Part shown: positions 22,632-47,927 of the stretch, piece after piece
Numbering within the stretch: position 1 is the stretch's first letter
Layout: each line of letters starts with the position of its first letter
Assembly (NCBI GenBank): GCA_021646465.1
Contig: SOET01000009.1
Coordinates: forward strand, 1-64,000
Direction: 5' to 3'
Origin: Candidatus Kuenenia hertensis
GTDB taxonomy: Bacteria > Planctomycetota > Brocadiia > Brocadiales > Brocadiaceae
Length of the DNA stretch: 64,000 nucleotides
Made by a program: the position numbers and the translations under genes
The notes under the pieces: generated by a model
Database searches by the model: none
Seen by the model: only the letters and a program-made list of their open reading frames with translations
Told to the model about the DNA's origin: nothing

Positions 22632-22710
22632 TTCAACATTGTATTATGCTTCGAGGTAGCCCTGTCAGGGTTAACACTCCGTCCACAAAAATTAAGCTGA
22701 AGTTTTTGTG

Positions 22711-22790
22711 CTGTCAGGAGTTTCCTCCTGACAGCAATCCACGCCGTGTCAAGGCGGCAGGCGGCAACTCCTGCCGCCACTGTTCATAAA
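22711..22790. repeat. Double-hairpin repeat, family A (copy 2, inverted)
   Basis: CTGTCAGGAGTTTCCTCCTG... (22711-22734) and GGCGGCAGGCGGCAACTCCT... (22753-22778) followed by TGTTCATAAA. It is the reverse complement of the element at 1591. A further short palindrome, TAGCCCTGTCAGGGTTA, lies at about 22657-22673. The element separates the ketosynthase operon from the ferredoxin-like gene and ends just before that gene's ribosome site. Confidence 0.85.
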
Positions 22791-22805
22791 TATTGGAGGA
22801 ATGCA

Positions 22806-23411
22806 TTGAAGCAATACGCAATGCTCTTTGACGCAGACAGATGCGTTTCCTGCAAAAGGTGCGTAGCCGCATGCAGGGAAGAAAATAACATTACGGGCGA
22901 ATGGAACAGGATATTTGTAAAAATGAAGGAATCTGAACGGGAATTTGCTCCGCCGGAACCATTCGTACAGATGTGTAATCAATGTAAAAACCCGGGTTGC
23001 GTTACCGCATGCCCTGTGGATGGAAAGGCAATTCATAAACGGGCAACAGACGGCATCATTCTTGTCGACCATGAAAAATGCACTGGTTGCGGAGAATGCG
23101 TCAAGGGTTGTCCTTACAATCTCATTCATATGAGTGAATGGAAGAATGCGAGAGGACAATGTGTTGCTGATAAATGCACGTTATGTTCTCATCGTTTTGA
23201 TTCATTCAATGAAGTTCCCGATGACTACGATCCGCCATGCGCACAGATTTGCCCGGTAGGAGCCCTCAAATTTGGAGAAAAAAAAGAACTTGACGAACTG
23301 GTAGAATGGAAAGGGAGGAAGGATGACGTTTTACGGAATGAAAAAAACAGTATCATTCCCAGCAACATTTCGCTGAAAAAGAGAAGGGTAGACCGGCAGG
23401 TGAGTTTATAA
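22806..23411 (+). CDS. Four-cluster ferredoxin-type electron-transfer subunit (NrfC/PsrB-like), orphan
   Basis: About 201 residues from the TTG at 22806, which has GGAGGA five nt upstream; the frame can be read further upstream only through the palindromic repeat. Sixteen cysteines are arranged for four [4Fe-4S] clusters: CVSCKRCVAAC, CNQCKNPGCVTAC, CTGCGECVKGC and CTLC...CAQIC. This is the beta-subunit type of molybdopterin oxidoreductases (DmsB, PsrB, NrfC). No catalytic or membrane partner is adjacent. There is no signal peptide. It may deliver electrons to the neighbouring radical SAM enzyme or to a distant partner; the sequence does not decide. Confidence 0.85.
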   Translation: MKQYAMLFDADRCVSCKRCVAACREENNITGEWNRIFVKMKESEREFAPPEPFVQMCNQCKNPGCVTACPVDGKAIHKRATDGIILVDHEKCTGCGECVKGCPYNLIHMSEWKNARGQCVADKCTLCSHRFDSFNEVPDDYDPPCAQICPVGALKFGEKKELDELVEWKGRKDDVLRNEKNSIIPSNISLKKRRVDRQVSL

Positions 23412-24977: not shown

Positions 24978-25044
24978 GTAGAGACGCATTGCAATGCGTC
25001 TCTACAAAATGTGTGGGCGTTGTTTTTGGTTGGCATTGCCAACC
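24978..25044. repeat. Two palindromes in the 24897-25412 gap (families E and F)
   Basis: GTAGAGACGCATTGCAATGC... (24978-25005) is a perfect 28-bp palindrome; the same sequence is at 30666-30693 and a near copy at 37169-37194. GGTTGGCATTGCCAACC (25028-25044) follows. Both are framed by GTAAGGGTAGG and CCCTACGATC, so together they make one nested element of about 90 bp. The remainder of this 516-base divergent gap is AT-rich and contains the putative sigma-54 site at 25316. Confidence 0.8.
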
Positions 25045-25315
25045 CTACGATCAAAAGCTGCCGTAAGATCTAATTAAAACAGCTTAAGATACCACATACA
25101 ATGAGTATTATCAATAAATTACTTAAAAATAGGGCATGTTTACCATAATAGTAAATATCATTTGTAGAAATTCTTAGGGTAATCAAACCATATTTTTTTG
25201 TTTGTTTTTAAATAGAATCTTTAAAACAAAAATTATTAATAAAAAGAAATTACGTATGTTATTATTCTTTAAATAGATACTGCATTTCTGCGAATTAACA
25301 AATAACAGTTTGAAA

Positions 25316-25332
25316 TTGGAACAGGTTTAGCT
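25316..25332 (+). promoter_or_regulatory. Candidate sigma-54 (-24/-12) promoter of the kinase gene
   Basis: TTGGAACAGGTTTAGCT matches YTGGCACGN4TTGCW at the essential GG and GC, spaced exactly 12 nt apart, with three mismatches elsewhere. It lies about 80 nt upstream of the ATG at 25413 and faces it. A divergent NtrC-type activator gene next door makes the assignment more credible. Seen by eye only. Confidence 0.4.
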
Positions 25333-25412
25333 TTTGGTTCGCAATGATTGTTAAAAAATTTTAACCAAATTGGTAAAACTTTTGAGACCGTTTTTGGGAA
25401 AAAAACAGTACA

Positions 25413-27134
25413 ATGCCTTTGAAAATAAATATTAACGAATTGTCTATAGGTGAAATATTTTTACTTTCAAAGCATATTAAGGAGCAGTGTAAAGATTTAA
25501 CATGTATGGAAGAAATTGCTCAGAACATGATGAGAATATTATACTGTTCATTTACTATGGAAAAGGAAATGAATCCCGTCGTATTGGCGCGTTTTTTCAA
25601 AGTATGTCAATATGAGCATCTTCCTGAAAATATTCAACATTACATAATGCGAAAGGAAAACAGGGAATATATTTCACCGGAAAATAAATACCTCACGCTA
25701 CTGGGGACATGGGGTGACATGAAGGAATGGAGAGAGAGAACCAGATCAACGAACTGCCAGGCATTCTCCATGAATAACCCTGATTTATTAAACAATTTTC
25801 CAATGATTTCAGCACTATTCAGCCAAATAGGATTCGAATTCCCCGAAGCTGCGTTACCGGATAAAAGTATTATGATTGAAGGCATGCATAAAAAATATGG
25901 AATTTTTTGTGTTGAAGAAGCAAGGGGAAGTAGTTTTATTCCAAAACAGGACGAATTTGTAAAACCGTATGATGTTCAATCGGTCATTGGTTTTGGCGGT
26001 ATGTATTCTACGGGCAACATCTATGCAGTAGTAGTATTTACACGAAAGAAGTTGAACAGAGAAAAGGCAAAATTGTTTTTGAGTATAAATCCTGCCATCA
26101 AGTGGACAACAATAGAACATGAGTTGTGCGGGAATATTTTTATTGGAAATAATAAAACTCTCTCCATGCAAGATAACAATAATGCATTTATTCCTGATTC
26201 CGAATCAAGCGGGCAAAGACAACACTTGAAGATCAAATGTGAAAATGAAAAAGCAGTTACCGCGGCTGAAGAATTAGATATGGCAAATGAGTACTTGATC
26301 GAAATGACTGCTGAATTGCGCGAATCAATTAAGAATAATGAAGAAATTATCCTTCGGCTTGAAGAAGCCAGCAGGGCAAAATCGCGTTTTTTATCAACGA
26401 TGAGCCATGAATTGCGTACTCCGCTTAACGCAATAATCGGGTTTAATGATTTGCTTTCTAATCAGTTTTATGGAAATCTAAATAAAAAACAGGTGGAATT
26501 TGTACGGCAGATTGGAGAAAGCGGCTTACATCTTCTTTCACTCATTAATGATTTACTCGAAATATCAAAGATTGATTCAGGTGCTATGTCCCTTGAGATG
26601 GAAAAAATTAACCCGGTAAATATGGTAAATGAAGTGTGTATGATGATGTGTGAACAGTTTTACAAAAAAAATATTGAGTTAAACATTCAGGTAATTTCAT
26701 CACTGCCTTCAATATATGCTGATGTGAAGAAATGCAAACAAATTATGTTTAACTTGCTGTCTAACGCACTCAAATATACACCTCAATGCGGTAATGTTGA
26801 TGTTGTTGTCTCAAAATCAGAGGGACCTTCGATTAAAATAGAGGTAAGAGATACCGGAATTGGGATAGAAGCGGATAAAAAAGGTGCAATATTTTCTGAG
26901 TTTTTTCAATCAAAACGTGTAAGAGATGAACAACGTGGAGGAGCTGGAATTGGGCTTCCGCTTACAAGGCGGTTAGTAGAATTACATGGGGGAATGATCG
27001 GTTTAGAGAGTAGGGTTGGCAAAGGAAGTGTGTTTTGGTTTACATTGCCAGTGGTGGCAGGAGTTTCCTCCTGCCACCCGAATTCCTGTGGACATAGGGG
27101 AGGTAAGCAGTTGCAGTCAGGAGGAAACTCCTGA
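25413..27134 (+). CDS. Soluble sensor histidine kinase with uncharacterised N-terminal sensor domain
   Basis: 573 residues, no membrane segment. Residues about 40-230 form a sensor domain seen in cyanobacterial and proteobacterial kinases (VVLARFFKVCQYEHLP; LTLLGTWGDMKEW; EEFVKPYDVQSVIGFGG; NIYAVVVFTRKKL). A coiled coil (about 275-325) leads into HisKA (MSHELRTPLN, phospho-histidine about 332) and HATPase_c (NLLSNALKYT, DTGIGIE, GGAGIGLPLTRRL). The domain ends at WFTLP. The remaining 27 residues are encoded by repeat family A, with the stop codon inside its second hairpin. No receiver domain is attached. The divergent NtrC regulator or the downstream response regulator may be its partner. Confidence 0.88.
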   Translation: MPLKININELSIGEIFLLSKHIKEQCKDLTCMEEIAQNMMRILYCSFTMEKEMNPVVLARFFKVCQYEHLPENIQHYIMRKENREYISPENKYLTLLGTWGDMKEWRERTRSTNCQAFSMNNPDLLNNFPMISALFSQIGFEFPEAALPDKSIMIEGMHKKYGIFCVEEARGSSFIPKQDEFVKPYDVQSVIGFGGMYSTGNIYAVVVFTRKKLNREKAKLFLSINPAIKWTTIEHELCGNIFIGNNKTLSMQDNNNAFIPDSESSGQRQHLKIKCENEKAVTAAEELDMANEYLIEMTAELRESIKNNEEIILRLEEASRAKSRFLSTMSHELRTPLNAIIGFNDLLSNQFYGNLNKKQVEFVRQIGESGLHLLSLINDLLEISKIDSGAMSLEMEKINPVNMVNEVCMMMCEQFYKKNIELNIQVISSLPSIYADVKKCKQIMFNLLSNALKYTPQCGNVDVVVSKSEGPSIKIEVRDTGIGIEADKKGAIFSEFFQSKRVRDEQRGGAGIGLPLTRRLVELHGGMIGLESRVGKGSVFWFTLPVVAGVSSCHPNSCGHRGGKQLQSGGNS

Positions 27135-27137
27135 CTG
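27049..27137. repeat. Double-hairpin repeat, family A (copy 3), inside the kinase gene
   Basis: CAGTGGTGGCAGGAGTTTCC... (27049-27078) and CAGTCAGGAGGAAACTCCTG... (27114-27137), separated by 35 nt. The kinase frame runs through the first hairpin and stops (TGA 27132-27134) in the second. Confidence 0.85.
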
Positions 27138-27210
27138 CACGAGGATGATGCCAATATGAAGCAATTAGCAGCAGAAAAAATGGCACAATCTGTCAGAACA
27201 CATTAATTCT

Positions 27211-27290
27211 GGTAGGGGCAATTTATGACTTGTAGAGAGAGCGAAGCGCATTGCCTCTACAAGATTGAAATTCCTTAACGTTAAATTACT
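27211..27290. repeat. Inverted repeat upstream of the chemoreceptor gene (family G)
   Basis: GTAGGGGCAAT (27212-27222) pairs with ATTGCCTCTAC (27250-27260), and the element ends ATTGAAATTCCTTAACGTTA (27266 on), the reverse complement of the edge at 37972-37990. This links families C, E, F and G by a common end sequence. Confidence 0.65.
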
Positions 27291-27342
27291 TAATAGCAAT
27301 CATTAAATAGATTTGTGTTATGTAAGAAAGGAGCATTCTCAC

Positions 27343-30665: not shown

Positions 30666-30706
30666 GTAGAGACGCATTGCAATGCGTCTCTACTCTCCTG
30701 ACAGTA
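30666..30706. repeat. Palindrome family E (copy 2) fused to a half copy of family A
   Basis: A perfect 28-bp palindrome GTAGAGACGCATTGCAATGC... (30666-30693) runs directly into CTCCTGACAGTACG, the right end of the family A hairpin at 1651-1663. One repeat has evidently landed in another. The rest of the 30574-30770 gap shows no gene. Confidence 0.75.
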
Positions 30707-37102: not shown

Positions 37103-37168
37103 CACAATTCATTTGAATTTATCGGTATACGTGAATTTAAAATTGTTACTAATAAGGGGGCAAGGATA

Positions 37169-37194
37169 TAGAGACGCATAGCAATGCGTCTCTA
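37169..37194. repeat. Palindrome family E (copy 3)
   Basis: TAGAGACGCATAGCAATGCG... is the 26-bp core of the family E palindrome with one changed base at the centre. It is preceded by AAGGGGGCAAGGATA and lies 12 nt upstream of the TauE-like gene, where it could form a hairpin in the mRNA leader. Confidence 0.7.
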
Positions 37195-37206
37195 CGTTGA
37201 AATAAA

Positions 37207-37971
37207 ATGGAATTGTGGAAATGTCTCATTATGTTTCCCATTGGAATTGTTGCGGGGATAATCAACACCATTGCAGGGGGAGGGTCGCTTTTTACATTGC
37301 CAATACTAATTTTCATTGGATTACCTCCCTCAATTGCTAATGGAACAAACCGGCTGGCTATTGCCGCCCAAAATGTATCTGCTGTTGCAGGTTTTAAATA
37401 TAAAGGTATTTCCAACTTCAAGCTTAGTATATTGATGGCTGTGCCTGTTTTATTTGGAACAATTGTAGGCGTAAATATTGCCGTAGAAATTTCTGACGTA
37501 TTGTTTAAAAGAATTTTGGCAATAGTAATGTTGCTTGTTTTTTGGCTTATGATGTGGGATTCAATTGCGAAAAAGACAGGCTGCGTTTTATTTGATTATT
37601 CAGCGAAAAAAATAAGTTTTTTTCATAGAATCATCACAGTGGCGGTATTTTTTTTCGTCGGACTTTACTGTGGTTTTATACAGGCAGGAGTGGGGCTCGT
37701 TATAATAGCAGTATTAGCTTCCATTAGTAGTTTTCGCCTTGTTGAAATTAACAGTCACAAGGTATTTATTATCGGAGTAAGTGCATTGTTTTCATTGTTA
37801 GTTTTTATCTATCATAATAAAATCTGCTGGCCGGTCGGTATCTCATTGGCAGCCGGTAACGGGCTGGGAGGATGGCTGGGAAGCTATCTGGCAGTTAAAA
37901 GAGGAGATCGTTTGATCAAAACAATATTGTGTGTTATGATAATTTTTATGGCAATAAAACTGTTACTATAA
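37207..37971 (+). CDS. TSUP-family membrane transporter (TauE/SafE type)
   Basis: 254 residues, about eight transmembrane helices. The family's N-terminal glycine-rich motif GIINTIAGGGSLFTLPIL and LPPSIANGTNRLAI are clear, and the second half repeats the pattern (GFIQAGVGLVIIAVL). Relatives export sulfite, sulfoacetate or other organosulfur anions. The cysH gene at 16.8 kb makes sulfite, but there is no physical link. Substrate unassigned. Confidence 0.88.
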   Translation: MELWKCLIMFPIGIVAGIINTIAGGGSLFTLPILIFIGLPPSIANGTNRLAIAAQNVSAVAGFKYKGISNFKLSILMAVPVLFGTIVGVNIAVEISDVLFKRILAIVMLLVFWLMMWDSIAKKTGCVLFDYSAKKISFFHRIITVAVFFFVGLYCGFIQAGVGLVIIAVLASISSFRLVEINSHKVFIIGVSALFSLLVFIYHNKICWPVGISLAAGNGLGGWLGSYLAVKRGDRLIKTILCVMIIFMAIKLLL

Positions 37972-38018
37972 TTTAACGTTAAGGGATTTCAATCTTAGGA
38001 GGGTGGGCATTGCCCACC
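37972..38018. repeat. Palindromic element with shared end sequence
   Basis: TTTAACGTTAAGGGATTTCA (37973 on) followed by the hairpin GGTGGGCATTGCCCACC (38002-38018). The end sequence is the reverse complement of 27266-27290. It belongs to the nested element group and sits between the TauE-like gene and the ribbon-helix-helix-like gene. Confidence 0.65.
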
Positions 38019-43275: not shown

Positions 43276-43330
43276 TAATAGACTCCCAAATAAGTATGTA
43301 ACACTATTTTTCCAAATAAACTATTTCGTG

Positions 43331-43398
43331 CTGTCAGGAGTCTCCTCCTGACAGCAACCTGGGCACTATCAGGGCAGCAGGAGGAAACTCCTGCCGCC
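43331..43398. repeat. Double-hairpin repeat, family A (copy 4)
   Basis: CTGTCAGGAGTCTCCTCCTG... (43331-43354) and GGCAGCAGGAGGAAACTCCT... (about 43373-43398), spacing and order as at 22711. It fills most of the gap between manC and the flavin reductase gene. Confidence 0.85.
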
Positions 43399-43432
43399 AC
43401 TTGGAATGGGAATGCTCCCCTTGGAATTGTAG

Positions 43433-44869: not shown

Positions 44870-44918
44870 CTTGTATGCATTTCTAAAAATATTATACGTA
44901 ATATAGAGAATTGGTATT

Positions 44919-45426
44919 GTCGGGTAAGAAACCCGACAAGATGAACTGTTTGCAAATTTTAGTATTATAATCACGCATGTAATATCTTTCAAGATATTTA
45001 GAAACATACGACGAGTTTATGTGGTACTTGTACTTTGCACAAATACGGGAAAAATAAGGTTTTTTAAAAACAGGGATTGAGTTTCAAATCAGACGCAGAG
45101 ACAAGGTGGAAGAGAGCGAACGTACATAAGGCCTGGTTTCTTACCCTGCAATACCAATTCGGATTAGAAAGATGTCGGGGGGAGCATTCCCAAATTTTTG
45201 TAAATCCATCATTGTGATGGAAGCCCCTTGCGGGTTCAGATTTGTAATCTGAACCCAATAGTTTATCTGATTAATAGCGATATATACATTTCATGGCTAA
45301 ATTGCCACATATGAAACGTGGGGTTCAGGTCACAGACCTGAACCCGCCTGGGGGAGTTCCAAATCAGACACAGAAACAAGGGGGGGGAGGGCGAACGTAC
45401 ATATATTGTCGGGTAAGAAACCCGAC
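44919..45426. repeat. Cluster of palindromes in the 44870-45497 gap (family H and others)
   Basis: GTCGGGTAAGAAACCCGAC occurs at 44919-44937 and 45408-45426, with a decayed copy near 45134. Between them are GGGTTCAGATTTGTAATCTG... (45232-45256) and GGGTTCAGGTCACAGACCTG... (45321-45345), both perfect 25-bp palindromes sharing their outer six bases. The 628-base gap contains no credible gene; frames here run through the repeats. Confidence 0.75.
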
Positions 45427-45497
45427 CTTACAGGAACTTTCAAATCCGAATTGGTATTATTGTTTTAATGGATGTTGACAAATTAAAAGCCGTACTT

Positions 45498-47505: not shown

Positions 47506-47681
47506 GCACTTAGAGGATTTTACTGTGAAAAATTTTAATGATTTTATGTGAAAAACGTTGTTTTAATGTGGCGAATTGTGGTGTGAATATTTTGAAAAGA
47601 ATGGAGAAGTGGGCACTCCCGATTTTTTGTAAAAACCAATTATCGTTTTCATATTGTATTGTCGGGAAAGTTTGGAAGTAG

Positions 47682-47741
47682 GTCGGGTTTCTTACCCGAC
47701 AATCCGTTTTCATAATTGTATTGTCGGGTAAGAAACCCGAC
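47682..47741. repeat. Two inverted copies of palindrome family H
   Basis: GTCGGGTTTCTTACCCGAC (47682-47700) and GTCGGGTAAGAAACCCGAC (47723-47741). They lie in the 784-base gap 47144-47927, which shows no gene and is otherwise AT-rich with the operator-like palindromes at 47454. Confidence 0.8.
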
Positions 47742-47927
47742 CTACAGACTGAGCCTGCGAATGTACTCAGATGACGATAAGCGCCATCTGAACGGAGCTC
47801 CTATCTGCCGACAGGCAGGGAAGAATAATAAATGATGAGTGTTGCAAAAAATCAGGAATGCTCCCCTCATTCTTCATTCTTTCATTCTTCCCTACAGGGC
47901 TAATTTTTATCTTTTATTAGCACAGGC

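Follow-up and report, generated by a model that had tools for sequence, protein, structure and literature searches.

A histidine kinase gene of Candidatus Kuenenia hertensis runs, at its 3′ end, into a palindromic repeat and stops there. This raises two questions: what the repeat contributes to the encoded protein, and how the gene came to end in this way. The gene lies in a 64,000-nucleotide stretch of contig SOET01000009.1; this whole stretch is referred to here as the window. Hydrazine synthase alpha was detected in the genome (PF18582, E 1.7e-25) and in 0 of 14 control genomes, and its presence identifies the host as an anammox bacterium. The features of the locus are collected in Table 1.

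The kinase and its repeat-encoded end

Pfam searches and a 25-sequence alignment identify the gene product as a histidine kinase, with HisKA and HATPase_c domains and conserved H, N and G boxes. Every residue that the alignment shows as invariant in the H, N, G1 and G2 boxes is present in this protein. No other Pfam domain was found at E 0.001; Response_reg is absent, and the protein does not have the receiver behind the HATPase domain that marks a hybrid histidine kinase. From its motifs, the kinase appears to be still active. The N-terminal region (25413 to about 26340) has no Pfam match. Related sequence heads other proteins at 43–50% identity, recurring in genomes G032, G010 and G002 and on contig C42 of the same genome, and the region is an unnamed module, with a role that is probably sensory.

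Table 1. Features of the kinase gene and its 3′ flank
Feature	Position	Strand	Remarks
Histidine kinase gene	25413-27134	+	573 aa; ORF and Pfam
N-terminal region	residues 1 to about 310 of the kinase		no Pfam assignment
HisKA	residues 322-390 of the kinase		Pfam
HATPase_c	residues 437-547 of the kinase		Pfam
Two-hairpin palindromic element, REPIN-like dimer	about 27046-27145	+	G-type hairpin, then inverted T-type
Element-encoded codons	27051-27131	+	n=27; VVAGVSSCHPNSCGHRGGKQLQSGGNS; predicted disordered
Hairpin 1	27053-27078	+	11 pairs, loop 4; within coding frame
Hairpin 2	27112-27139	+	12 pairs, loop 4; stop codon in 3′ arm
TGA stop	27132-27134	+	in 3′ arm of hairpin 2
Same-frame continuation past TGA	27135-27206	+	23 codons, then TAA; LHEDDANMKQLAAEKMAQSVRTH
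Second dispersed repeat	27212-27260	+	other copy L112:1586-1635, 90% identity
Third dispersed repeat	27261-27288	+	copy at window 37969-37996, 96%

The HATPase domain of the kinase ends in the residues FWFTLP, and the DNA of the element begins at the next codon. The final residue of this motif, Pro546 (P546), is invariant in 25 of 25 aligned kinase sequences. The open reading frame ends as FWFTLP-VVAGVSSCHPNSCGHRGGKQLQSGGNS-stop, so that everything past Pro546, 27 residues including two cysteines, is encoded by the repeat, as is the stop codon. The preliminary description had proposed exactly this, a cysteine-containing tail and a stop in the second hairpin, and the reading frame and the copy survey below bear it out. 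Downstream of the element lie about 70 bases that are unique among the collected loci, followed by two further dispersed repeats and a chemoreceptor gene.

The element region has a folding energy of −54.3 kcal/mol. Dinucleotide shuffles average −33.7 kcal/mol (s.d. 3.9), which corresponds to z −5.3, and none of 200 reached so low a value. The kinase copy matches covariance model R1 with E 1.8e-15, a value that is not independent because this copy was among the 12 training sequences of R1. Independent support is provided by the element copy at C55, which matches positions 27110–27145 at 92% identity (E 7.4e-7). Most two-hairpin copies have 40–47 bases from the start of one hairpin to that of the next; the distance is 59 bases in the kinase copy and 64–69 bases in four others. 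No intrinsic terminator was found at the end of the kinase gene, and the window gave no Rfam match at gathering scores.

In a single low-depth structure prediction (25 sequences, pTM 0.42), tail residues 550–573 received pLDDT values below 50, as would be expected of any homologue-less sequence and hence also of this tail; most blocks of the ATPase domain scored 79–91, with a low stretch at residues 497–512. In this model, the tail is outside the ATPase fold. The tail is probably neutral, and the element a tolerated neighbour that happens to be translated.

A dispersed, REPIN-like family

The hairpin core pattern CAGGAGKNNNCTCCTG matched the 4.17-Mb genome 56 times in forward and 60 times in reverse orientation, whereas a reversed-pattern control gave 0 matches. 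Most places count on both strands because the core pattern is itself palindromic. Merging the core matches with those of a 12-copy covariance model (the kinase copy included) gave 51 places, one of which, C33:10694, yielded no hairpin core. This list supersedes an earlier one of 55 clusters and 79 hairpins, which held chance palindromes inside genes. Within the window, three further copies lie at 1586–1668, 22703–22785 and 43323–43405; the preliminary description had noted hairpins of this family (family A) at three intergenic places.

The hairpins are of two types, AGTGGYGGC-AGGAG... and GTGCTGTC-AGGAG..., and are mostly paired in inverted orientation, the outer ends of the pair being GTG/CAC; some hairpins stand alone, and in a few pairs both run in the same direction. 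Among 81 listed hairpin cores, at least two of which arose by chance (one at C89:66140 and a false third core at C59:1586), stem position 2 is T-A in 40 and G-C in 26, position 4 is T-A in 53 and C-G in 19, and position 5 is C-G in 32 and G-C in 29. This mixture of Watson–Crick pairs indicates that the stems remain palindromic as their bases vary, although part of the variation reflects the two hairpin subtypes.

A survey for other genes ending in the repeat found that only one of the 51 places, the kinase, gives a gene a believable C-terminus, in surveyed DNA of which about 80% is coding; both the coding share and the overlaps were derived from longest-ORF picks, not from annotation. The other overlaps involve spurious-looking ORFs of 89–124 amino acids and two genes that overlap a copy only through an early GTG or TTG start (window 22746 and L106:3032). 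A gene at L124 has its own TGA just ahead of an element copy. If its GTG start is used, a ferredoxin-type ORF (22746–23411) begins within the copy at 22703–22785. The real start of this ORF is probably downstream, and automatic annotation could give its product a false repeat-encoded N-terminus.

In several respects, the family resembles REP/REPIN sequences, which the available text of PMC3733652 describes as short palindromes with many, mostly intergenic copies and head-to-head dimers. Here too, a short imperfect palindrome is dispersed in many, mainly extragenic copies, and the typical unit is an inverted dimer of a G-type and a T-type hairpin. However, neither a GTAG nor a CGTC stem tag was found in the 81 hairpins, the conserved outer tag being GTG, and no transposase gene adjoins a copy: the genome has nine Y1_Tnp genes, and no family A hairpin lies within about 1.5 kb of any of them. 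The core matches near these genes are all weak, with two substitutions. Because it lacks both the stem tag and an adjoining transposase gene, the element is called REPIN-like and is not filed as a REPIN. A resident RAYT adjoining the repeat was likewise rejected, the Y1-transposase flanks being devoid of family A hairpins. Three of eight scanned transposases passed the NCBIfam cut-off for REP-associated transposases, and the palindromes beside those three belong to other families.

Other palindromes also recur. The palindrome TGTCGGGTAAGAAACCCGACA is found in the window at 44915–44939, 45404–45428 and 47678–47745, and at L023:2001; GTAG precedes at least one copy (window 47678), and in L023 the palindrome adjoins a REP-associated transposase gene. 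It may represent a genuine RAYT-linked REP of this genome. At L023:2050–2164 and L024:1310–1423, two different REP-associated transposase genes have common flanking hairpins, GGGTTCAG...CTGAACCC. A near-perfect palindrome, GTAGAGACGCATTGCAATGCGTCTCTAC, has three copies in the window (24978–25005, 30666–30693 and 37168–37195) and is also present in G002, a congener of the host.

The exact core CAGGAGTTNCCTCCTG of the kinase-associated family occurs 55 times in this genome, six times in G002, once in a second congener (G001) and one to five times in each of nine further family genomes. None of 15 genomes from other families contains it, and in all it is present in 12 of 39 genomes. At C55, both flanks are 35 bases apart in G001, where the element is absent, and 106 bases apart with the element in the present genome. 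Taken together with the core counts across genomes, this element-free site indicates that the element multiplied in this lineage. As regards the terminal inverted repeats and target-site duplication that mark a MITE, the outer ends of the element are inverted repeats, and the one element-free site compared, C55 in G001, is too diverged for a duplication to be read. The two flanks of C33 lie on different contigs in G002, and the left side alone was found in G001, so that this place does not serve as an empty site.

Related kinases and the origin of the present gene end

Distant orthologues carrying the same tail without the repeat, which the preliminary description had named as counter-evidence, were not encountered: the loci yielded 36 distinct kinase cores, and the tail is missing from all 35 relatives, whose sequences diverge from the codon immediately after Pro546. 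In the phylogenetic tree, the window core forms a clade of eight with seven other kinases (54–61% identity; support 100/100). In all seven, Pro546 is followed by a linker of about 25 residues and then by a receiver-like part with a VEDN, VDDN or AEDN start, giving tails of 144–152 residues. The receiver labels were assigned from tail length and the visible VEDN/VDDN motif, with Response_reg confirmed by Pfam in all three of the seven that were scanned. Five full-length homologues (544–552 amino acids, 34–35% identity) stop 7–8 residues past Pro546; the short kinases, these five among them, end 5–8 residues past it and form a clade of their own (10 rows, support 100/99). The earlier expectation that orthologues would stop right after the HATPase domain thus holds for distant relatives, but these belong to the separate clade, and the close cores run on.

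As the nearest cores are hybrid kinases, the ancestral gene probably did not end at the site of the element. Sequence comparison further suggests that the window kinase probably lost its receiver at the junction where the repeat now sits. The window kinase is a long branch in the tree (0.6), which weakens its exact placement. No close full-length orthologue was found in the 33 family genomes searched, the host's own included, where the best full-length match has 35% identity; the state of the gene before the element was therefore not seen. A contig search with the kinase returned a single result, a 39% relative in a Lentisphaeria genome.

The neighbours of the kinase are conserved in G002 at 80–86% DNA identity. 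By sequence reading, a sigma-54-type regulator gene lies on the left, and on the right are genes for a chemoreceptor, a response regulator, a hemerythrin-like and a ferritin-like protein. The kinase gene itself is absent from the syntenic place. At the corresponding site in G002 (L144), the segment at about 25242–27320 has as its counterpart a cheW-like gene and a response regulator gene, the latter with a C-terminal half that reads as HD-GYP-like. The difference is a one-site replacement of signalling genes, the kinase in one genome and the cheW-like and response regulator genes in the other.

The account that we favour, and consider likely as a whole, is that a REPIN-like, lineage-amplified palindromic dimer came to sit directly behind Pro546 of a hybrid-derived kinase core. 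In this orientation, one frame of the kinase copy is open for 27 codons before reaching the TGA in the second hairpin, leaving the gene with a disordered, probably neutral tail and without the receiver of its close relatives. The element would have arrived in or beside the gene, and the position of the tail outside the ATPase fold would explain why it was tolerated. A weaker proposal is that the receiver was lost in the same event as the element arrived. A single-step conversion of a hybrid into a free kinase by arrival at the HATPase–receiver junction, with a REPIN-like element rewiring a phosphorelay, seems unlikely.

A competing explanation, clearly less probable than the favoured account, is that the kinase was already a short, non-hybrid protein, and that an element at the 3′ end removed or displaced a stop codon a few codons past Pro546 and so extended the protein. 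The short kinases, including the five full-length homologues, end at just such a distance, and there are printed cases involving other repeats, Coxiella EnhC and the Erwinia amidase; however, these kinases form their own well-supported clade, and the window core groups with the hybrid kinases.

It is also conceivable, if somewhat doubtful, that the receiver was removed by deletion or recombination ending in pre-existing repeats, in which case the element would be a breakpoint and not the cause. Three dispersed repeats lie within 240 bases past Pro546, and the whole kinase segment stands in place of the G002 cheW and response regulator genes, both in keeping with a breakpoint. Against this, a receiver remnant was not found and the junction is known from one copy only, which makes such an event impossible to reconstruct.

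More doubtful still is that insertion of the element within the coding sequence truncated a protein with an older C-terminal tail, of which the stretch past the TGA would be the remnant. The kinase frame remains open beyond the TGA (the run-on reads EDDANMKQLAAEKM...) until a TAA at 27204–27206, so that the element may have cut off such a tail and this stretch is a possible older gene end; the sequence from the element to the next repeat is also unique among the collected loci. Yet it is not unusual for 23 codons to stay open by chance, and the best match of the peptide elsewhere in the collected loci, its own gene excluded, reached only E about 1.7, with none to receiver linkers. The peptide was also rejected as a remnant of a receiver linker: a frameshift-tolerant alignment to seven hybrid linkers scored 23 against a mean of 23.3 for shuffles (plain base shuffles, not dinucleotide-preserving), 30 of 60 of which did equally well. 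Recruitment of the hairpins for mRNA-end protection or pausing, or of the cysteine tail for a function of its own, is very improbable despite the very stable hairpins and the paired stem changes across copies, since the same hairpins occur at 50 other places unrelated to the kinase gene, stem pairing characterises the whole family and not the kinase copy in particular, there is no terminator-like tail, and the kinase tail is unique and predicted to be disordered.

The initial view stands insofar as a dispersed palindromic element supplies the tail and stop codon; its proposal of an insertion at the 3′ end of the gene is less secure, as the nearest cores are hybrid and the frame runs on past the TGA.

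Comparison with other repeat-written protein ends

Small repeats that write the ends of proteins have been described before. According to the available text of PMC3733652, ORFs that adjoin a REP often take their stop codon from its end, and REPs also occur inside ORFs; REP-derived COOH-end residues may not affect function, and Planctomycetes are among the carriers of REPs. In the Erwinia amidase gene ECA3499, an RU-1/ERIC fusion at the 3′ end replaced the normal stop after the conserved domain (PMC2759123, in the part available). As in the window kinase, the added tail ends at a stop codon inside the repeat. However, RU-1 is unrelated and measures 127 bp, and the amidase orthologues plainly end earlier, whereas the ancestral end here may have been a receiver domain.

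Similarly, QMITE2 gives Coxiella EnhC about 33 C-terminal residues, as far as the accessible portion of PMC5896051 describes, and these too are repeat-encoded. There, the stop codon lies immediately downstream of the repeat and another Coxiella strain displays the state without the extension, whereas the stop of the kinase is inside the element. Rickettsia palindromic elements (RPEs) of 105–146 bp are found in 19 reading frames, many of them of conserved proteins, in the account given by the available part of PMC2229807. By this description, RPEs resemble the present element in being palindromic repeats translated in frame within proteins; they differ in that only one gene among 51 copies is affected here, and only at its very end.

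No mention of this repeat was found among the titles and abstract openings seen on palindromic, MITE or REP repeats of anammox bacteria, or in the available part of PMC5854607. The repeat-made end of the kinase is a clean new example of an already described event, in another repeat family and another host. With it, an anammox planctomycete joins the bacteria whose small palindromic repeats write protein ends. It is also a clear case of repeat tolerance, the element following the final conserved residue and thus lying behind the fold. Should the loss of the receiver belong to the same event, a selfish repeat would have altered a signalling architecture, going beyond the decoration of a protein.
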